Of a DNA stretch of 64,000 bases, positions 2,416 through 63,689 are shown one piece after another. Made by a program: the position numbers and the translations under genes. Under the pieces are notes generated by a model. The model was given only the letters and a program-made list of their open reading frames with translations, was not told the DNA's origin and did not search any database. The stretch is from Halichondria panicea (lineage: Eukaryota; Porifera; Demospongiae; Suberitida; Halichondriidae): contig NC_087380.1 of the NCBI RefSeq assembly GCF_963675165.1, positions 1,355,803 through 1,419,802 on the forward strand. Reading direction: 5' to 3'. Position 1 is the stretch's first letter. Every line of letters starts with the position of its first letter.

Positions 2416-14496
<12,081 letters not shown>

Positions 14497-16261: not shown

Positions 16262-19200
16262 ATGAATAATGAACTCCTGGCTACAAGAATAATGAGAATG
16301 TTCCCCTCAAGGTTATTTCTCTGCTGTCTGCTGGGAAGTGCTTTCCTAGTGTATGGGCAGCCTTTGAGTGAGTTGATATAGATTATGCAGTGCAACTAGC
16401 TTTTACTGATTATGTAGACGTCTGTATAGTGTAATACTATTAAATCTTGTGTTACTAGTACTGGTGTTATCTAAGTAGTACCAGAGCATCAATTATTGTA
16501 TTAATGGCATACAGCTAGACTAGCATCACCCACTGAGTCCTCTACCACTAACCACACTGGAGAGATCATCTCGTTTTCTGATGTTGGACCAAAAATTGAT
16601 AGTGATCCATCAGCCTGGTATTGCTACACCTCAGACCCTGGTGGTGTAGTGTGGCAGTTCCCTGATGGGAGTGGTGTGCCCATAGGCAACCCGAACAATC
16701 CCAGCACAGCTGCAGGTGATGACGAACTGATCATCACTGGTGTTGTTGGAGTTGGCGTTGCTCTGCATCGTGGTCCTGATCACTTCAGTCCTGATGGAAA
16801 ACACTGCTGTGTGAGGATTTCCACCACTGAGAGGAAATGTGTCACGTTCAGTGAGTGCTGACTATTATTATTGTCTATGTCCAATACTTACCCCCATCCC
16901 CACATGCAGCTCCCTGCCCCACACTGAGTCCCTTGTCTAATGGACAAATCTTATACAACCCTGGTACCGACATGGCCACAGCCACCTACACCTGTAACAC
17001 TGGGTACACTGTGACTGGTACCATCTCATCCATTATCTGTAACAAGGGTACAAGGGAGTGGAGTAGCACTGAGAGACCCACTTGTGAACGGCGTAAGAAA
17101 CATTTGATTTAATTTTTCACATTTATTGGCTTCCTCCTTGCATACAGTGATTTGTCCAGACATCATCATCCCAGCCAATGGAGTGATCACTTACAACCCA
17201 ACAACTACCCCCAGAGATGTGGGGTCCATGGCTTCCTACAGCTGTACCACTGGCTACCTGATGACTGGACTGGCAGTGAGGATGTGTACTGTCACTGGAT
17301 GGAGCACTGGAGATGATCCCGTCTGTACTGGTGAGGGTGATGGGTAAAGTGTTGTTGAACTGATGTGATCAAGTGTGTACCCGGACCCATATATATACAC
17401 AGCTATCTGTCCTGACCTCCCTGCACTGGTCAACGGAATGATATTCTACAATCCACTCTCCACCCCCAGACTGCAGGGAACAGTGGCTAGACACTTCTGT
17501 ATTGTCACTGGGTACCAACTGTCCTCATCCACTACTACTAGGACCTGTCAGTCTAACAGAACATGGAGTGGATCATCCCTCATTTGTAACCGTAAGTCTT
17601 AGATATGAGTAACTTTACCGTTTTAATTTATCATGTATTATAGCTGTCTTCTGTGGCTCCCCTCCCACTGTCCCCAATGGAGTGATGACCAGCTCTACTG
17701 GTACAACATTCGGAGCAATAGCCACCTACTCCTGCAACACTGGGTACCAAAGGTCAGGATCAGCCACGATAACTTGTCAGACTAGTGGGAGCTGGAGTGC
17801 AGCACCAGTGTGTAGAGGTAAGACACATCACTGAAGGTATTGTATCAGGCTATTTCCCCCAGCCATCTGTTCTAACCTCTCTGTACTGGTCAACGGAATC
17901 ATCGTCTACAATCCAACCTCCACCCCCAGACTGCAGGGAGCCATGGCTAGACACTTCTGTGACACTGGGTACCAACTGTCCTCATCCACTACCACTAGGA
18001 CCTGTCAGTCTAACAGAATGTGGAGTGGATCATCCCTCATTTGTAACCGTAAGTCTTATAGATATTAGTATTATGAGAAACTTTATCGTTATTATGTATT
18101 ATAGCTGTCTCCTGTGGCTCTCCTCCCACTGTTCCCAATAGAGTGATAACCAGCTCTACTGGTACAACATTCGGAGAGACGACCATCTACACCTGTAGCA
18201 CTGGGTATCAAAGGTTAGGACCAGCCACGATAAGTTGTCAGGCTAGTGGGAGCTGGAGTGCAGCACCAGTGTGTAGAGGTAAGACACATCACTGAAGGTA
18301 TTGTATCAGGCTATTTCCCCCAGCCATCTGTTCTAACCTCTCTGTACTGGTCAACGGAATCATCGTCTACAATCCAACCTCCACCCCCAGACTGCAGGGA
18401 GCCATGGCTAGACACTTCTGTGACACTGGGTACCAACTGTCCTCATCCACTACCACTAGGACCTGTCAGTCTAACAGAATGTGGAGTGGATCATCCCTCA
18501 TTTGTAACCGTAAGTCTTATAGATATTAGTATTATGAGAAAATTTATCGTTATTATGTATTATAGCTGTCTCCTGTGGCTCTCCTCCCACTGTTCCCAAT
18601 AGAGTGATAACCAGCTTTACTGGTACAACATTCGGAGAGACAACCATCTACACCTGTAGCACTGGGTATCAAAGGTTAGGACCAGCCACGATAAGTTGTC
18701 AGGCTAGTGGGAGCTGGAGTACAGCACCAGTATGTAGAGGTAAGACACATCACTGAAGGTATTGTATCAGGCTATTCCCCCCAGCTATCTGTCCTGACCT
18801 CCCTTTACTGGTCAATGGAATCATCGTCTACAATCCAACCTCCACCCCCAGACTGCAGGGAGCCATGGCTACACACAGCTGTACTACCACTGGGTACCAA
18901 CTGTCCTCATCCACTACCACTAGTACCTGTCAGTCTAACAGAATGTGGAGTGAACCATCCCTAACTTGTCAAAGTGAGTTGTGTTGACCCTTTAAAGTTT
19001 TTACACACAATAATTTTCAGTTGTGGACTGTAACAATCCTCCGATGATCTCAAATGGAATGAGGCAATTTTCTGCAACTACATTTGGAGAGACTGCCACT
19101 TATATGTGCAATGGAATCTTTGTTCTATCAGGAAGCTCCACCGTAACTTGTATGGCTAGTGGACTCTGGAGCACACATCCAATATGCTCTCGTCAGTCAA

Positions 19201-34813: not shown

Positions 34814-37445
34814 ACACTATAACAACACAGTTTAGTTTGTCAATGTATGTGCGCATGTCACTGTTTCATATTTTAATAGCAATTATTCAATGTTATAAAT
34901 CTCAATTTATATAATGAGATTCATTTTTTCCTCATTTCCTTAGTAGATCACATTTAATGTAATCATTCATAGTTTTTCCTTGGTCCCACAAATAAGTTGT
35001 TTGGGTCTCAGAAGTGCACTCCTGCATGGTCTCACAAATAAGCTACTGCATGTACACATTCTTGAATCCATTATTCTTCTAATGATACGCCACGAACATA
35101 TAAAACCAGAAACAAGTGAGAGCATTTTATAAGACAGTCTAAGTGATTGTTCATTCCCATTCCCCATACAGAGCCACTGTACGAACACCTGTCCTGCTGT
35201 TCCCATATCAACCACTATACCGACATTGACATTGTAGCAGTATGAGTTTGTTGACTCATAAATTTGGGATAGTGTAAGCAAAGGCATGATAATTATAAAG
35301 CAAACTAATGACCTCTTCTAAAACACGTATACCCTGGTGCTATATTATAGCACCCCATTTTTTACAGTGTATAGAAATAACAACTATCTTCATGTAGTTG
35401 TTGTAGTCATTCTGATTATTGTAAAGTGCATGACTGTATTCATGTAAGAATTAAGGATCAACTGCATGCAAGTACATGTACTTGTGCATGTGATTGCCTC
35501 GATGGATACAGTAAAGCTGACTGTATGTGTGCCGTCTATTCCAGCTGTAACTATACGCAATGCGACAAAAACTAACAGCTTCTAGCCACGTTCTTGATTC
35601 GTGGATTTGCAAACTAAAGCTTATTTTTCTCGAGTTAATCTTATGGCTAGTTTTACAGAGTCTCTTGCTACAAGCCAGAAAAAAAGATGCAAGGCTGTAC
35701 CCCAGGCCATGCAGAGAAGCAGCCATTGCATGTGAACTCTGACCTCTTTGCAAATCCACTCCTTTTCATTGACAGGAAATACTTATACATTGTAGCTTCT
35801 ACTTTGTATTCTTGATTACAGGAGTGCTGAAGATCATTCATCAAGCCATCAGATATACATAGATCTAGACTTTTGTTTCCAAATTAATGGGAACAGACAG
35901 GACGTATAGCTAGACTAGGAGCTAGGTATATACAGAAGGTTCAACCAGCAGAGGTCCTGGCACATACACTGTAGTATAGGCTATACTACAGTGTATGTAC
36001 TATAGCTGCTCATGCAGTAAATAAGTGCCAACAGGAGTAAATGTACTCCTGGTGCCAGCTAATATAGGATTTAATTTCACATTGAACAATTAGAATGTAA
36101 GTTATGTTGTCTTAATTCTATTCGTGTATAATCTCCTATGCAATGCAGTCTCCCTTTTGCTTATGCCAACACCCCCACATTCCACCACAACTGCAGAGTG
36201 CACACTGCACAGTACGTGAACAAGACGTTGATATAAAAACAAATAACACCACCAACTGCATGTCTAACACGTACTCTTAATAATTGGGGCGAGCAAAGCG
36301 AGTATGTCTGTATGTATGTCTGTATGTATGTATGTATATAATTATGTCATGGACGACACAGAGATGGTCTGACCACACACTATACTCTTGAGGTACGCTT
36401 ACAGCAGGCCTTACTTGCTAAAATATAAACTTCAAGCATTGTAGAGTAATGCGTATACTTGTGACCAGCAAGAAACACTATATGTTTGGAATCAGTATAT
36501 TTAGAGCAGTTTGCCAATCCTTCAATGGCTGTATATATGCACTTTCCAATGCAACCTGCATTTATCACTTGCTCCTCAATATCGGTCCGACACACTTATC
36601 ATTGTATAGACTACTGCTTGTATAGGAGTCCAGAGCCAAGGCAATCGTTTTGTTGTTAAGCTGAGTATTGTCATAATATTTTTTGGGCCACATGCGTTGT
36701 TACATGCATGCTGAACTTTCACTCTATAGCTATTATTGTTGGAATTCTACAATAACATGCAGCTTCGGGTTTACAGCAGTTCCATTATGACATGAACAGC
36801 TGTGCCTTGTTACCGCAGACATTGCCTAACCATGCACAACCTTTTCCCTGTTGGTCAAATTCAACTACACTGTTATCCTAACTGGAACCTAGTCTTATGA
36901 ATCAGCCTGCCTTGGGAGATTATCTCAGGGCGGCTGATGCACGAGACTAACTGGAACCACTGTTACTGGACAGACTTGTATTATTCTAGAAGTGCATTGT
37001 AGGCATGTCATGTAGACACATTTTGTTATCCTGACTTCTGTTATTATATTTACCGTTGGATACATGCATGATAGTTTGCACATGTACTTTCAGTATAAGT
37101 CTATACATTGTAGATCTATATGCTTTTATCCTTAGGACTCATATGCTTAAAACAATTAACAAAATGGTTTTGCAATGTGTCTACTTAATGTTTGGAATTC
37201 AAAATGCAACCATATATTTCGTAACATAATTAGCTATCTCTTCTCTAACACTCTATACCTTTTGAGCAAAACAAAACATGTCGAGAGATATTACCACAGT
37301 GCAGCTAGAAACATTCATTCTAGAACAGCAATGTAGACGTGTCATAATTATGTATACACACTTTTGTTATTTAATACCATTGGATAAAATGCATGTATAC
37401 TTTCAGTATGAACTACTTTAAATGTTAAGCAATAGCTAGCTAACT
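34814..37445. other. Intergenic repeat mosaic between receptors 3 and 4
   Basis: I see no gene in these 2.6 kb. It holds a copy of the unknown EPLYEHLSCCSHINHY exon (35171-35220), a dispersed repeat (35494-35690), a perfect palindrome (acatacactgtagtatag, 35962-35999), a short TATG-rich array (about 36300-36345), and degenerate UHRF1-unit 3' sequence at about 36950-37020. Confidence 0.6.
35494..35690. repeat. Dispersed repeat, copy 2
   Basis: Contains cctcgatggatacagtaaag, attccagctgtaactatacg, aaaactaacagcttctagcc and tgattcgtggatttgcaaac in the same order as at 24722-24920. The class is not identified. Confidence 0.6.
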
Positions 37446-41263: not shown

Positions 41264-41334
41264 AATTATAATGAGATTCATTTTTTCCGCATTCCTTATT
41301 ATAAGGAATGCGGAAAATGAATCTCATTATAATT
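41264..41334. repeat. Near-perfect 71-bp palindrome
   Basis: The arm aattataatgagattcatt...ccgcattccttat meets its complement with almost no loop and with one small length difference in the T run. A single arm occurs downstream of receptor 3 at about 34910-34940. The sequence was therefore inverted-duplicated here, directly beside the large foldback element. Confidence 0.85.
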
Positions 41335-41499
41335 AAATGTGGTCTGGTCTCACAAAATGAGGCTATACCTTGGTATAAAAAGTCACAATTCATGAATATA
41401 ATTAAACCTCTATAATGACGGTATAGGCATCAATATTATGGTTACATTCCATTCCAATAAGTGTACGTACGCATGGAGTGTACCATATAATTATGTCAC

Positions 41500-42900
41500 T
41501 ACTGTAACAACTGTAACACCAGTCACCACTGTAACAACTGTAACACATGTCACCACTGTAACAACTGTAACATCTGTCAACATTGTAACAACTTTAACAA
41601 TTGTAACAACTGTAACAACTGTAACACTTGTCACCACTGTAACGCTAGTCACCACTGTAACAACTGTAACGTCTGTCAGCACTGTAACAACTGTAACACA
41701 TGTCACCACTGTAACAACTGTAACACTTGTCACCACTGTAACAACTGTAACACCAGTCACAACTGTAACACTTGTCACCACTGTAACAACTGCAACACCA
41801 GTCACAACTGTAACACTTGTCACCACTGTAACAACTGTAACACCAATCACAACTGTAACAACTGTAACACCAGTCACAACTGTAACAACTGTAACACCAG
41901 TCACAACTGTAACAACTGTAACACTAGTCACAACTGTAACAACTGTAACGCTAGTCACCACTGTAACAAGTGTAACATCTGTCAACACTGTAACAACTGT
42001 AACACATGTCACCAATGCAACACATGTCACCACTGTAACAACTGTAACACCAGTCACCACTGTAACAACTGTAACACTTGTCACCACTGTAACAACTGTA
42101 ACACTTGTCACCACTGTAACACATGTCACCACTGTAACGCTAGTCACCACTGTAACAACTGTAACACTAGTCACAACTGTAACAACTGTAACACTTGTCA
42201 CCACTGTAACAACTGTAACACATGTCACCAATGCAACACATGTCACCACTGTAACGCTAGTCACCACTGTAACAACTGTAACACATGTCACCACTGTAAC
42301 AACTGTAACATCTGTCAGCACTGTAACAATTGTAACAACTGTAACAACTGTAACACCAGTCACAACTGTAACAACTGTAACACCAGTCACCACTGTAACA
42401 ACTGTAACACTTGTCACCACTGTAACACTAGTCACAACTGTAACAACTGTAACACTTGTCACAACTGTAACACCAGTCACCACTGTAACAACTGTAACAC
42501 CAGTCACCACTGTAACAACTGTAACACTTGTCACCACTGTAACACTAGTCACAACTGTAACAACTGTAACACTTGTCACCACTGTAACAACTGTACCATG
42601 TCACCAATGCAACACATGTCACCACTGTAACGCTAGTCACCAATGCAACACACGTCACCACTGTAACAACTGTAACACCAGCCACCACTGTAACACCAGT
42701 CACAACTGTAACAACTGTAGCACTTGTAACACTAGTCACAAATGTAACAACTGTCAACTGTAACACATGTCACCAATGCAACACATGTCACCACTGTAAC
42801 AACTGTAACACTAGTCACCACTGTAACAACTGTAACATCTGTCACCACTGTAACAACTGTAACACATGTCACCAATGCAACACACGTCACTACTGTAACA
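41500..42900 (+). repeat. Minisatellite, left arm of foldback
   Basis: The main unit is 27 bp (gtcaccactgtaac aactgtaacacca), itself three 9-mers related to aactgtaac. Shorter 18-bp units (gtcaccactgtaacacta) and longer variants occur irregularly. The fourth position varies between cca, cta, ctt and cat. Translation gives VTTVTTVTL-type strings in every phase. Confidence 0.95.
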
Positions 42901-42949
42901 CTTTAGTCTGGCACCACTATAGATTATAAGTACTATAAGAACTAGTGTT

Positions 42950-44810
42950 ACAGTTGTTGCATGTGTTACAGTGGTGACAAGTGTTACAGTTGTGACTAGC
43001 GTTACAGATGTTACAGTGGTGGCATGTTGTTACAGTTGTGACTAGTGTTACAGTTGTTACAGTGGTGACTGGTGTTACAGTTGTTACAGTTGTGACTAGT
43101 GTTACAGTTGTTACAGTTGTGACAAGTGTTACAGTTGTTACAGTGGTGACTAGCGTTACAGTTGTTACAGTTGTGACTGGTGTTACAGTTGTTACAGTGG
43201 TGACTAGTGTTACAGTTGTTACAGTGGTGACAAGTGTTACAGTTGTTACAGTGGTGACTAGCGTTACAGTTGTTACAGTTGTGACTGGTGTTACAGTTGT
43301 TACAGTGGTGACAAGTGTTACAGTTGTTACAGTTGTGACTAGTGTTACAGTTGTTACAGTGGTGACAAGTGTTACAGTTGTTACAGTGGTGACTAGCGTT
43401 ACAGTTGTTACAGTTGTGACTGGTGTTACAGTTGTTACAGTGGTGACAAGTGTTACAGTTGTTACAGTTGTGACTAGTGTTACAGTTGTTACAGTGGTGA
43501 CAAGTGTTACAGTTGTTACAGTGGTGACTAGCGTTACAGTTGTTACAGTTGTGACTGGTGTTACAGTTGTTAGAGTGGTGACTAGCGTTACAGTTGTTAC
43601 AGTTGTTACAGTGGTGACTAGCGTTACAGTTGTTACAGTTGTGACAAGTGTTACAGTTATTACAGTGGTGACTAGCATTACAGTTGTTACAGTTGTGACT
43701 AGTGTTACAGTTGTTACAGTGGTGACTAGCGTTACAGTTGTTACAGTGGTGACTAGTGTTACAGTTGTTACAGTGGTGACAAGTGTTACAATTGTTACAG
43801 TGGTGACTAGTGTTACAGTGGTGACAAGTGTTACAGTTGTTACAGTGGTGACTAGCGTTACAGTTGTTACAGTTGTGACAAGTGTTACAGTCGTTACAGT
43901 GGTGACATGTGTTACAGTTGTTATAGCTGTGACTAGTGTTACAGTGGTGACAAGTGTTACAGTTGTTACAGTGGTGACAAGTGTTACAGTTGTTACAGTG
44001 GTGACTAGCGTTACAGTTGTTACAGTGGTGACTAGTGTTACAGTTGTTACAGTTGTGACAAGTGTTACAGTCGTTACAGTGGTGACATGTGTTACAGTTG
44101 TTATAGCTGTGACTAGTGTTACAGTGGTGACAAGTGTTACAATTGTTACAGTGGTGACTAGTGTTACAGTGGTGACAAGTGTTACAGTTGTTACAGTGGT
44201 GACTAGCGTTACAGTTGTTACAGTGGTGACTAGCGTTACAGTTGTTACAGTTGTGACTAGTGTTACAGTTGTTACAGTGGTGACAAGTGTTATAATTGTT
44301 ACAGTGGTGACTAGTGTTACAGTGGTGACAAGTGTTACAGTTGTTACAGTGGTGACTGGTGTTACAGTTGTTACAGTGGTGACTAGCGTTACAGTTGTTA
44401 CAGTTGTGACTAGTGTTACAGTTGTTAGAGTGGTGACAAGTGTTACAGTTGTTACAGTGGTGACTAGCGTTACAGTTGTTACAGTTGTGACAAGTGTTAC
44501 AGTTGTTACAGTAGTCAAGTACGTGTTACAGTTGTTACAGTTGTGACATGTGTTACAGTTGTTACAGCTGTGACTAGTGTTACAGTTGTTACAGTAGTCA
44601 AGTGTTACAGTTGTTACAGTTGTGACTAGTGTTACAGTTGTTACAGTGGTGACTGGTGTTACAGTTGTTACAGTTGTTACAGTGGTGAGTTGTGACTAGT
44701 GTTACAGTGGTGACAAGTGTTACAGTGGTGACTGGTGTTACAGTTGTTGCAGTTGTTACAGTGGTGATTGATGTTACATTAGTTACAGTAGTGACATAAT
44801 TATATGTTAC
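42950..44810 (-). repeat. Minisatellite, right arm of foldback
   Basis: Reverse-orientation units (gttacagttgttacagtggtgactagt) fill about 1.85 kb. The array is more regular than the left arm and about 450 bp longer, so the arms have expanded unequally. A few unit variants (gtgttataattgttac, gttatagctgtgacta) recur and show higher-order block duplication. Confidence 0.95.
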
Positions 44811-44984
44811 ACTTAATTATGTGGAATGGAATGTAACCATAATATTGATGTCATTATAGAGGCTTAATTATATTCATGAATTGTGACTTTTTATACCAAG
44901 GTATAGCCCAAAATGAATACTGTCAAGAGTTCATTGGGATTCCTTGATACTGTACACATTCTTTATTCTTTCTGGGGAAATAGC

Positions 44985-54863: not shown

Positions 54864-55369
54864 AGACTATAACAACACAGACTGTTATGAATATCATGTA
54901 GTTGTTATTGCAAGTTATGTAACTCCCATATGCCACGGTGTGTGCAGTGATTTGCGCAATAGTGTATGTTTATCTAACACAAGCATGCAAAGCATGCAAA
55001 AGATACTGCTATGATTCTATCTGTTTAAACTGCATGAGTGAGATATTAATTCTGTACAGCGGGTATATTTCGAGGGTATAAATGTTTGCAGTTTTTGTAA
55101 AAGCCTGTACCGTGAACATGCATGATACCCACAAATTTAATATCGCATGCATGCATGCTGCAAAACTGCTATTCCGCGAAAATCTTTCAGAGATCTTTCC
55201 GGTAGGACAGGTATCTGTGTTGTCATATACATATAATTATTCTTACCAACATGCACAGGCAGTAAAGTGGGCTAGTTTTTTTTGTATAGGATGTGACTGT
55301 ATTCATTTGTGTCTATAATTATTCATAGCGTTCACATGACTGTTTAGTAGCTGAGTGTTTTGATCAGAC
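54864..55369. other. Spacer upstream of sulfatase 1
   Basis: The sequence at 55057-55090 (gcgggtatatttcgagggta) matches the beginning of the UHRF1 units (about 320), so a trace of that repeat is present. The promoter of the sulfatase must lie here. No recognisable motif. Confidence 0.4.
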
Positions 55370-56956
55370 ATGCCTCAGGGGAAGAAGCTCAGTATCTTAG
55401 TTACCCTGCTTGTAACTAGCTGTGTTTTCAAAACAACTGCTGGTTTGAAGGATGTATTGTTTATTGCTGTGGATGATTTGAGACCCGACCTCGGTACTTA
55501 TGGAATTGATGTTGTGAAGTCTCCAAACATTGACAAGCTAGCTTCCGAGTCACTTGTGTTTGATAGAGCGTACTGTCAGGTAGCAATGTGTTCGCCATCT
55601 CGAGCTTCTCTGCTAACTGGAAGACGTCCAGACACTAATCATGTTTGGAAGATAGCTGGTGACGAATATTGGAGGACAACTACGAATGCTACAACTATTC
55701 CTCAGTACTTCAAGGAGAATGGGTATGTGAGTGCTGGAATAGGAAAGATATTTCACCCTGGTTCCCCAAGTGGAAATGATGATATACAATACTCATGGAG
55801 TGTGCCTTACTTTCATGCCCCTGCAGACACTACAGGTAATAACCCATCTTGGCATTCCTTTGACAATAACGCTACCAACTTACAAGACGGCAAACTTGTC
55901 GACTATACTATCACCACCATGAAAGAAATCAAGGAAAACAGGACCAAAGGGGACAACAGGCCATTCTTTCTTGCACTCGGTATTCATAAACCCCATCTTC
56001 CATTTTTCTGTGCTGAAAAGTATTTTGATATGTACCCACCAGCTGAGCAGATAGAGCCTCCAAAGAATACTGATGTTCCAAAAAACTTTCCACCAATCGC
56101 AAGAGGACTTTGTGCAATTAATAGGTTCAATGACACAAAAGAATTCTTTCCACATTTCAATAAATGTAAAACTGATGTTCAGGAATCATTTCACGGAAAA
56201 GACTGTCAAATTCCTCTTAACTACACTCGTGTGTTGAGAAGAGCCTACTACTCTTGTGTGAGTCAGACAGATGCACTGATTGGAGAGGTTATTAATGAAA
56301 TGACATCACTCGGATTAGCTGATGACACGATTATTGTCTTATGGGGTGATCACGGTTGGCAACTGGGCGAACACAATCATTGGTGTAAAATGAGTAACTT
56401 CGAAGATGCTACACGAGTACCCTTCATGCTGAGGGTTCCTGGGGTCACGGACAAAGGCATGCGTACTAGCGCTCTGGTTGAACTCATTGACATATTCCCG
56501 ACAATCACTGAGCTAGCTGGTATTAAGGTACCTCCAATGTGTCCTGTTGGAAACAAGCAACCTCTGGTGTGTGTGGAGGGGACTAGTCTAACCCCTCTGC
56601 TCCAGAACCCCAACATGGACTTCAAGAAAGCAGCCTTCTCACAATTCCCACGACCATATTATGGGATGAGTGTGATACCAGATGAACCTGTTTTTGACTC
56701 TGAGAGTGAAGAGAATGTGATGGGTTACTCCATTCGAGTGGATCAGTATCGTTTCACAGAATGGTATCGTTTCAATCACATAACAGCAACTCCAAATTTT
56801 ACAGATATTTGGGGGACTGAACTTTATAACCACACGGAGCCGACAATGTCCTTCAACGATGAGAACGAGAACATGGCCGGTGATTCAGACAAGCAAGACT
56901 TGGTCGAGTCTCTCCGAAAAATACTACAAGCTGGTTGGAGGGCAGCTATGCCTTGA
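55370..56956 (+). CDS. Iduronate-2-sulfatase-like enzyme, intronless, copy 1
   Basis: A single 528-codon open frame. The N-terminus has a hydrophobic signal (LSILVTLLVTSCVFKTTAG). The metal motif AVDDLRPDLG (residues 33-42) and the sulfatase signature CSPSRASLLTGR with Cys74, the residue converted to formylglycine, are intact. RRPDTNHVW, TTIPQYFKENGY, GKIFHPG, HKPHLPF and WGDHGWQLGEHNHWCK follow the iduronate-2-sulfatase pattern rather than the arylsulfatase A/B pattern. Expected role: removal of 2-O-sulfate from iduronate-type sugars in the lysosome or outside the cell. The length is near the usual 550. It lacks introns although surrounding genes have many, suggesting origin by retroposition or an old intron loss. 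It lies between two receptors and has two relatives in the window. Confidence 0.9.
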   Translation: MPQGKKLSILVTLLVTSCVFKTTAGLKDVLFIAVDDLRPDLGTYGIDVVKSPNIDKLASESLVFDRAYCQVAMCSPSRASLLTGRRPDTNHVWKIAGDEYWRTTTNATTIPQYFKENGYVSAGIGKIFHPGSPSGNDDIQYSWSVPYFHAPADTTGNNPSWHSFDNNATNLQDGKLVDYTITTMKEIKENRTKGDNRPFFLALGIHKPHLPFFCAEKYFDMYPPAEQIEPPKNTDVPKNFPPIARGLCAINRFNDTKEFFPHFNKCKTDVQESFHGKDCQIPLNYTRVLRRAYYSCVSQTDALIGEVINEMTSLGLADDTIIVLWGDHGWQLGEHNHWCKMSNFEDATRVPFMLRVPGVTDKGMRTSALVELIDIFPTITELAGIKVPPMCPVGNKQPLVCVEGTSLTPLLQNPNMDFKKAAFSQFPRPYYGMSVIPDEPVFDSESEENVMGYSIRVDQYRFTEWYRFNHITATPNFTDIWGTELYNHTEPTMSFNDENENMAGDSDKQDLVESLRKILQAGWRAAMP

Positions 56957-61911: not shown

Positions 61912-63495
61912 TTATGGCATAGCAGCCCTCCAACCAGCTTGCAGCATTTTTCGGAGAAGACCAACAATGTCTTGTATGTCTGGATCACCAGCTATGTTAA
62001 TATTTTCATCGTTGAAAAACATTGTCGGCTCAGTGTGATTGTATAGTTCAGTGGCCCAAATATCTGTGAAGTTAGGTGTTCCTGTTGTACGATTAAAGCG
62101 ATACCAATCCGTGAAACGATATTGATCCACTCGAATGGAATAACCCATTACATTTTCAGAATGCTCTTTTTTGTCAAAAGGAGGTTCATTTGGTATAGAG
62201 GTCATTCCGGCAGAAGGCCGAGGGAATTGTGAGAAGGCTGCTTTCTTGAACTCCATGTTGGGGTTCTGGAGCAGAGGGGTTAGACTAGTCCCCTCCACAC
62301 ACGCCAGAGGTTGCTTGTCTCCAGCAGGACACATTGGAGGTACCTTAATACCAGCTAACTCAGTGATTGTCGGGAATATGTCGATGAGTTCAACCAGAGC
62401 GCTAGTACGCATGCCTTTGTCCGTGACCCCAGGAACCCTCAACATAAAGGGCACTCGTGCAGTATCTTCAAAATTCGTATGCTTGCACCAATGATTGTGT
62501 TCGCCCAATTGCCAGCCGTGGTCAGCCCATAGAATAATTATCGTGTCGTCTGCTAATCCGAGTGATGTCATTTCACTGATCACCTTCCCAATCTGTGCAT
62601 CTGTTTGACTCACACACGCATAGTAACCCCTCCTCAGCACACGAGTGTAATCGTCTGAAATTCGGCACTCGTCTCCATACAATGATGCTTGTGCGTCAGT
62701 TTTACACTTTGTCATATTAGGATAAAACTTTTTGATGTCACTGAATGAAACAATCTCTGTAATAGCTCTTGCAATTGGCGGAAAGTTTTTTGGTACATCT
62801 GGATTCTTTGGGAGCTCTATTTGCTCAGCTGGCGGGTACATGTTGTAGAACTCTTCGGAACAATAGAACGGAAGATGAGGCTTATGAAAACCGACAGCGA
62901 GAAAGAATGGTCTGTCGTCTCCTTTGGTCCTGTTTTCTTTGATCTCTTTCAGAGTGCTGATAGCATTGTCAGCAATCTTTCCATCTCGCAAGTTGCTAGC
63001 ATTGGTGTCAAAGTTATGCCATGATGTGTGGTTGGCAGAGTCATCAACAGCATGAAAGTAGGGCACACTCCATGAGTATTTCCTATCATCATTTCCACCC
63101 GGGGGACCAGGGTGGAATATCTTTCCCATTCCAGCACTCACATACCCATTCTCCTTGAAATATTGAGGAATAGTTGTAGCGTTTGTAGTTGTCCTCCAAT
63201 ATTCGTCACTAGCGATTCTCCAAACATGGTTAGTGTCTGGACGTCTTCCGGTGAGGAGAGAAGCTCGAGATGGTGAACACACTGCTACCTGACAGTACGC
63301 TCTATCAAACACAAGTGACTCGGAAGCTAGCTTGTCAATATTGGGGGACTTTACGAAAGTAGCTCCATAAGTACCGAGCTCAGGTCTCAAATCATCCACA
63401 GCAAGGAATAACACATTCTTCACACCAGCAGTTGTTTTGACAACACAGCTGATTACAAGCAAGGAAAATATAATACCGAAGATTTGCTGAGGCAT
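61912..63495 (-). CDS. Iduronate-2-sulfatase-like enzyme, intronless, copy 2
   Basis: One open frame of 527 codons from the chosen ATG. An upstream in-frame ATG at 63519 would add eight residues, but the second gives MPQQIFGIIFSLLVISCVVK, a signal that lines up with copy 1. It has AVDDLRPELG, the signature CSPSRASLLTGR, GKIFHPG, HKPHLPF and WADHGWQLGEHNHWCK, so the catalytic Cys and metal ligands are present. It differs from copy 1 at scattered residues and in a small insertion (PFDKKEHSENV). Like copy 1 it has no introns. It is transcribed towards receptor 6 and away from the third copy's 3' end. Confidence 0.9.
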   Translation of the reverse strand: MPQQIFGIIFSLLVISCVVKTTAGVKNVLFLAVDDLRPELGTYGATFVKSPNIDKLASESLVFDRAYCQVAVCSPSRASLLTGRRPDTNHVWRIASDEYWRTTTNATTIPQYFKENGYVSAGMGKIFHPGPPGGNDDRKYSWSVPYFHAVDDSANHTSWHNFDTNASNLRDGKIADNAISTLKEIKENRTKGDDRPFFLAVGFHKPHLPFYCSEEFYNMYPPAEQIELPKNPDVPKNFPPIARAITEIVSFSDIKKFYPNMTKCKTDAQASLYGDECRISDDYTRVLRRGYYACVSQTDAQIGKVISEMTSLGLADDTIIILWADHGWQLGEHNHWCKHTNFEDTARVPFMLRVPGVTDKGMRTSALVELIDIFPTITELAGIKVPPMCPAGDKQPLACVEGTSLTPLLQNPNMEFKKAAFSQFPRPSAGMTSIPNEPPFDKKEHSENVMGYSIRVDQYRFTDWYRFNRTTGTPNFTDIWATELYNHTEPTMFFNDENINIAGDPDIQDIVGLLRKMLQAGWRAAMP

Positions 63496-63689
63496 GTCTT
63501 TCAACTTTGTACCAAGCAAACAGTGGCTAGCTACTAATGTGACCTTTATTTAAAATTATGGCTATGCAGAGCAGGTGTTCAGCTGTAAACAAAATATTCA
63601 CACACGATATGAATATGTATACACAATAGCTGTATAATTTAAGCACTTGCTGATCTACTAAATCTAGCACTGAATGTACATTTTGTTAT

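Follow-up and report, generated by a model that had tools for sequence, protein, structure and literature searches.

The Foldback (FB) elements of Drosophila have the architecture considered here, long terminal inverted repeats (TIRs) with internal tandem repeats, together with non-coding copies; the number of repeats in their arrays varies between copies and between arms, and chimeric copies without matching duplications occur. Sea urchin TU elements are foldback elements with short tandem units and 8-bp duplications, a likeness drawn from their description. Galileo, as far as the cited accounts describe it, shares long TIRs with tandem repeats and non-coding copies with the element reported below, and resembles it in array numbers that vary between copies and arms and in chimeric copies without matching duplications (PMC3688188, PMC3573991). 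It differs in its 7-bp duplications (PMC3573991), which are 8 bp long here, and in repeat units much longer than 9 bp. The Galileo transposase is of the P type, whereas the searches made here turned up no transposase with the foldback ends.

Tetris of Drosophila virilis is described as a non-autonomous foldback element with internal tandem arrays, 8-10 bp duplications and no autonomous copy; its repeats are 220 bp long and also form free satellite arrays, whereas the unit reported here hardly occurs outside the 14 copies of its element (PMC4079207). Tm1 of root-knot nematodes has foldback-like TIRs with a varying number of a motif of about 14 bp, and differs in its 9-bp duplications, its Phantom/Mutator-like transposase and its several interior types (PMC3169594). 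Merlin elements are alike in their GG termini, their 8-9 bp duplications and a TIR within the range of 24-462 bp, but they code for a transposase; the excerpted account mentions tandem repeats inside one dinoflagellate family and describes no opposed arrays like these (PMC8101967). Among the best-matching papers of the open-licence literature, no title or abstract opening gave an account of this family or of a sponge foldback element. The kind of element is known; an account of its unit, its ends or its host was not found among those papers. What it offers is a base-by-base record of the history of a young foldback family, in the form of intact duplications, a conserved centre, the stub of a lost copy and an apparent composite, the empty site of which is known from paralogues. 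Within a single genome it can thus be tested how the arms of foldback elements lengthen and remain inverted, and with what frequency such elements take host genes along.

The element lies in a stretch of 64,000 nucleotides from the sponge Halichondria panicea (the window), where it occupies positions 41361-44908 (3,548 bp, both ends exact). Its termini are GGCTATACCTTGGTATAAAA and the reverse complement thereof, and the inverted ends start GGCTATACC. The octamer caaaatga abuts the element on both sides (41353-41360 and 44909-44916) as an exact target-site duplication. The left terminal domain (L-type TIR, 41361-41493, plus strand, inner boundary approximate) contains extra blocks without a counterpart in the right terminal domain (R-type TIR, 44791-44908, minus strand, inner boundary approximate). 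Between them, the left arm (41494-42899, plus strand) consists of 9-bp units with a 27-bp higher order (TGTCACCACTGTAACAACTGTAACACC), and the right arm (42945-44790, minus strand, outer boundary approximate) of the same 9-bp unit reverse-complemented; the orientation of the repeats switches at a 45-bp centre (42900-42944).

A preliminary description, made from the sequence of the window alone, had proposed a foldback element with opposed arms of 27-bp units meeting at a centre of about 45 bp and flanked by an exact 8-bp duplication. The duplication was read directly at both ends, and Tandem Repeats Finder located the 27-bp period at 41494-42882 in forward orientation and at 42982-44753 in reverse complement, which confirms this architecture. 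The inverted ends that it reported also stand; they are, however, not 'perfect-style' over 140 bp, since the outer 45 bases are identical, the extra blocks of the left end lie further in, and 119 bases of the right end match the 140-bp left end at 81%. The 27-mer is made up of three 9-mers, each of the form TG(T/C)(A/C)AC followed by three variable bases. Across both arms of all 14 copies, the spacing between successive hexamers of this form was 9 bp for 2,502 pairs and 18 bp for 887. The arrays account for about nine tenths of the element in the window.

Folded as single-stranded DNA, the element has a predicted energy of -1500 kcal/mol, compared with -358 kcal/mol for one mononucleotide shuffle and -433 kcal/mol for one neighbouring stretch of equal length, and 1397 of the 1525 predicted pairs span the centre. 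A 453-codon frame in the left arm gave no Pfam match at E 0.001; it was rejected as a gene because the 9-bp period keeps frames open.

The 131.5-Mb host assembly (39 contigs) was scanned for further copies, and all copy counts given here are lower bounds. The 140-bp left end had at least 34 matches in the genome, among them at least 14 complete elements, which range from 1,112 to 4,718 bp, as well as six decayed ends that stand singly. For the 20-bp end, 29 matches with up to two mismatches were found against none for a reversed control, so these matches are not due to chance. The complete copies are spread over five contigs, each with its own flank. All 14 have the tandem-repeat inverted arms in opposed orientation and a terminal 5'-GG at both ends, and 11 of the 14, at dispersed sites, are flanked by an exact 8-bp duplication, which differs in sequence in all 11. 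Two of the conditions that the preliminary description had named as refuting it, a TIR absent elsewhere in the genome and no flanking duplication at other copies, were checked and did not hold; TIRs, 8-bp duplications and similar interiors recur at other copies, in support of a mobile foldback-type element. Coding interiors, for which it had proposed to look as well, were not found in the other copies. The 27-bp unit is almost confined to the 14 copies: a genome scan gave 46 exact matches to the 27-mer and 320 with up to one mismatch, and 46 and 317 of these, respectively, lie within the elements.

The left and right TIRs of one copy are unlike in the same way, by the extra blocks of the left end, in 13 copies, and therefore each copy has a left and a right. 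The centre of about 45 bp is conserved in 13 of the 14 copies, and only the 1.1-kb copy (L032) differs. It is also present in the most diverged copy (L034, contig C9), which we oriented by its longer end. This copy has no target-site duplication and contains about 600 bp of other sequence within one arm (L034 1000-4642), and it may be a chimera.

Comparison between copies points to recent movement of the family: over 3,521 aligned bases, 3 substitutions and 5 gaps separate the window copy from its nearest copy, on contig C5, and against a copy on C6 there are 7 substitutions in 3,431 bases. Seven pairwise alignments of the closer copies contained 45 gaps, of which 33 were multiples of 9 bp; the remaining gaps were mostly long, and the alignments are not independent of one another, since some sequences recur among them. 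This agrees with the array growth inside a mobile element that had been suggested earlier. The overlap in 21-mers was 0.71 between left arms and 0.66 between right arms, whereas left and right arms overlapped by 0.31 inside one element and 0.30 between elements. The left and right arms thus have separate lines of descent and change in length mostly by whole units, and the 21-mer overlap gave no sign that the two arms of an element are homogenised by pairing.

Among the insertions flanked by duplications, three of 11 interrupt open frames (136, 354 and 571 codons), and the frames split by the other eight have at most 98 codons. The 354-codon frame encodes EGF domains. For the 136-codon frame, the piece to the left of the insertion gave no match in Pfam, but about 156 bases to the right of this insertion a Merlin transposase domain starts. 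Insertions into exons fit a young family. The copies are clustered: four pairs of neighbours are less than 63 kb apart, which none of 100,000 random sets reached, and with the composite described below counted once, three pairs remain, which 3 of 100,000 random sets reached (the test ignores contig boundaries). Local hopping was considered and set aside; outside the composite, neighbours are not closest relatives, and a regional target preference is as likely.

A genome-wide scan with the 16-bp end detected a short remnant at C1:15035769-15035788, 42.8 kb from an intact copy. This stub reads CAGAATTG-GGCTATACCAAGGTATAGCC-CAGAATTG, that is, 20 bp of both element ends between 8-bp duplications. 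To judge by its sequence, the stub marks a lost copy, an element that was nearly all removed and the ends of which were joined via TATACC or GGTATA, which both ends carry. Such a product can result from excision followed by annealing of the staggered ends, or from a transposase-free hairpin deletion between the 6-bp end repeats. The nearly precise excision of Tn10 is a similar hairpin deletion. The sequence of the stub does not choose between excision and hairpin deletion. Seven other near matches to the 16-bp end that were examined (L071-L077) look unrelated to the element, and so does L080; the examined sites cover a minority of the matches with two mismatches. An exact 16-bp match at C17:2517121 (L066 422-437) stands without the rest of the element and without a clear duplication.

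On the basis of the inverted ends, the 8-bp target duplications, the absence of a recognisable coding interior, the near-identical dispersed copies and the stub, we consider it very probable that the element is a non-autonomous foldback DNA transposon that was moved recently by a transposase acting in trans, and that neighbouring copies can form the ends of one larger transposon. Each copy would move by cut-and-paste. The arms would have arisen from the inner border of each TIR, where the 9-bp unit was amplified, and would now change as whole units are gained or lost. Repeated along the arrays, this unit may serve as a binding site for the transposase, as in the TIR repeats of Galileo, sites in which are described as binding the THAP domain of the Galileo transposase (PMC3688188). 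By analogy this supports, rather than shows, a like role for the 9-bp units.

The transposase supplied in trans would most likely be of the Merlin type. The cited account names GG termini together with 8- or 9-bp duplications as hallmarks of Merlin (PMC8101967); as sequence features, the GG termini and 8-bp duplications found here fit Merlin better than P or hAT, and the assignment of the element to P or hAT in the preliminary description is not upheld. The genome contains at least 24 matches to the Merlin domain PF12762, and four of these 24 loci have GG ends and exact 8-bp duplications. Beyond GG, however, the four resolved Merlin TIRs show no likeness to the foldback element, and no clear ends emerged at the remaining 20 loci. 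None of the 24 loci, inspected with 1.5 kb on each side, has foldback ends of its own, and the one foldback copy that lies close to a Merlin domain has it as a neighbour or a target only. A scan of the assembly with the 20-bp end detected no coding element with matching ends, nor did the examined matches to the 16-bp end include one, and no autonomous partner was found within about 4 kb on each side of the six decayed ends when 12 Merlin frames and one P frame were used as queries. A Merlin (IS1595-like) transposase of this genome as the one that moves the family, which would refine the explanation given above, is in our judgement about as likely as not. We speak of a probable Merlin-type foldback element and do not place it within Merlin, since no IS1595-type transposase with the same ends was found.

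A transposase of the P type, or of the hAT or Mutator type, is a more tentative candidate, one that we would rate as possible but rather doubtful. Domains of all three are present in the genome, with at least 46 matches for P (PF21787), 31 for Mutator (PF10551) and 32 for hAT. Such a stub would result if two ends with a stagger of up to 17 nt annealed, since the near-palindrome TATACCTTGGTATA lies within the outermost 17 nt, and a 17-nt stagger is a property of P elements. On the other hand, CA-type or C/T-A motifs, and not GG, are usual at the start of P and hAT ends, and the hAT terminal motif C/T-A-A/G-N-G is not seen in the GGCTA ends. In one P family of the host, the two copies compared (L078, L079) end in sequence unrelated to the foldback ends. 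Mutator duplications usually measure 9 bp, against 8 bp in all 11 cases here. In favour of Mutator, most foldback elements seem to belong to it according to the account of Tetris (PMC4079207). The L078/L079 family of P-type transposases is itself of note: it has several equally scoring long frames, its termini show no clear inverted repeat or duplication, and it was recently amplified, since the two copies are 99.9% identical over 3.5 kb.

The capacity of the proposed in trans-mobilised foldback transposon to form the ends of a larger one is suggested by a pair of copies on contig C4. The copies L026 (C4:2577920-2582610) and L025 (C4:2612953-2617670) bracket 30,342 bp, so that the unit C4:2577920-2617670 comprises 39,751 bp in all. 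They are 99.9% identical, with 3 substitutions in 4,610 bases and 5 gaps, and a copy on C1 (L027) is about as close to L025 (4 substitutions in 3,556 bases). L025 and L026 each lack a private duplication; instead, AATTTATG stands to the left of L026 and to the right of L025, and the inner flanks differ (ACTATAAT and CAAGATTG). The joined outer flanks match paralogous sequences across the junction at C4:2641645, 2638705 and 2625421 (69-70% identity), and a fourth paralogous match, at C4:2633436 (86%), was found on the right side only in the search. An alignment of all four paralogous sites showed the left and right flanks to be contiguous without the unit. A paralogue was also seen to continue past the insertion point with sequence akin to the right flank of L026. 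About 20 bases at the paralogue junctions, with the 8-mer AATTTATG among them, align poorly, and AATTTATG itself is not kept in the paralogous sites. Because four paralogous sites that lack the unit span the junction, we infer that the unit was put into one former site: the outer flanks would once have been continuous, and the entry of the 39,751-bp unit was probably a single insertion of a composite transposon. The involvement in rearrangement that had been expected of the element finds support in the C4 pair.

Two elements moving the DNA between them have been described before. Ising's composite TE of Drosophila, reported in the 1980s, was an earlier composite between foldbacks (PMC6431247), and in the maize Ac macrotransposons two nearby elements move the intervening DNA, with an 8-bp duplication at the maize site (PMC9910405), as far as these sources are quoted here. 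The C4 composite differs from both in that it is deduced from one sequenced genome and was not seen moving.

Ectopic recombination, with a circle integrating into an element already present at AATTTATG, is an unlikely origin of the C4 pair and its 30 kb. The near identity of L025 and L026 would be expected from recombination also. Such an integration would, however, require that two other copies first gave rise to a circle and that another exchange followed, while composite transposition needs one event and a local jump; the differing inner flanks exclude a simple circle built around a single element that has a duplication of its own. A single transposition with the outer two ends explains all observations on the composite in fewer steps. 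That misjoined repeats in the assembly created the inverted arms or the composite is very improbable. Near-identical 4.7-kb repeats are where assemblers fail, and the closeness of L027 to one composite copy is relevant to misassembly, but the 14 copies have their own flanks on five contigs, 11 have a private 8-bp duplication, and the conserved centre in 13 of them speaks against an artefact.

Under the preferred reading as a composite transposon, the pair and the 30,342 bp were most likely inserted together into a formerly continuous site and carried receptor-gene DNA with them. We read 9 kb of this cargo (L068, L069, L081). For one 7-kb piece (L081), 10 of the 44 frames listed were scanned against Pfam, and seven of these 10 contain a domain (four Sushi, one Sushi plus EGF_CA, two Y_phosphatase); three had no domain match. 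Parts of the cargo are 69-90% identical in DNA sequence to the receptor region of the window over 42 to 666 bases. Most relatives of the two cargo ends fall within C4:1.93-2.33 Mb and are oppositely oriented, the best at 91% and 83%; a search of the genome for them did not reveal the exact donor of the cargo. They recur inside the cargo as well, which makes the cargo itself repetitive. A repeat present on many contigs makes up the final 150 bases ahead of L025. It is conceivable, though we hold it to be improbable, that the foldback family acts as a gene-moving engine in the receptor-gene cluster, with arms serving as arrays of transposase sites and paired neighbours carrying whole Sushi, EGF and tyrosine-phosphatase genes, and so feeds the expansion and reshuffling of the receptor family.

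The genes of the window encode Sushi, Ig, phosphatase and sulfatase domains (Pfam). A 497-bp unit, present in three copies at 98% (3338-4818), multiplies exons of the Sushi domain, and a 461-bp unit occurs in 3.4 copies in the receptor region (17400-18969). The sequence 7819-8161 is a (CA)171 microsatellite with 98% matches. Two long similar sulfatase frames (55364-56956, plus strand, and 61912-63549, minus strand) have receptor exons between them. A MITE-like palindrome of about 70 bp (41264-41334, 93% self-complementary) ends 26 bp to the left of the foldback insertion, and decayed pieces of it lie at 34905-34945.
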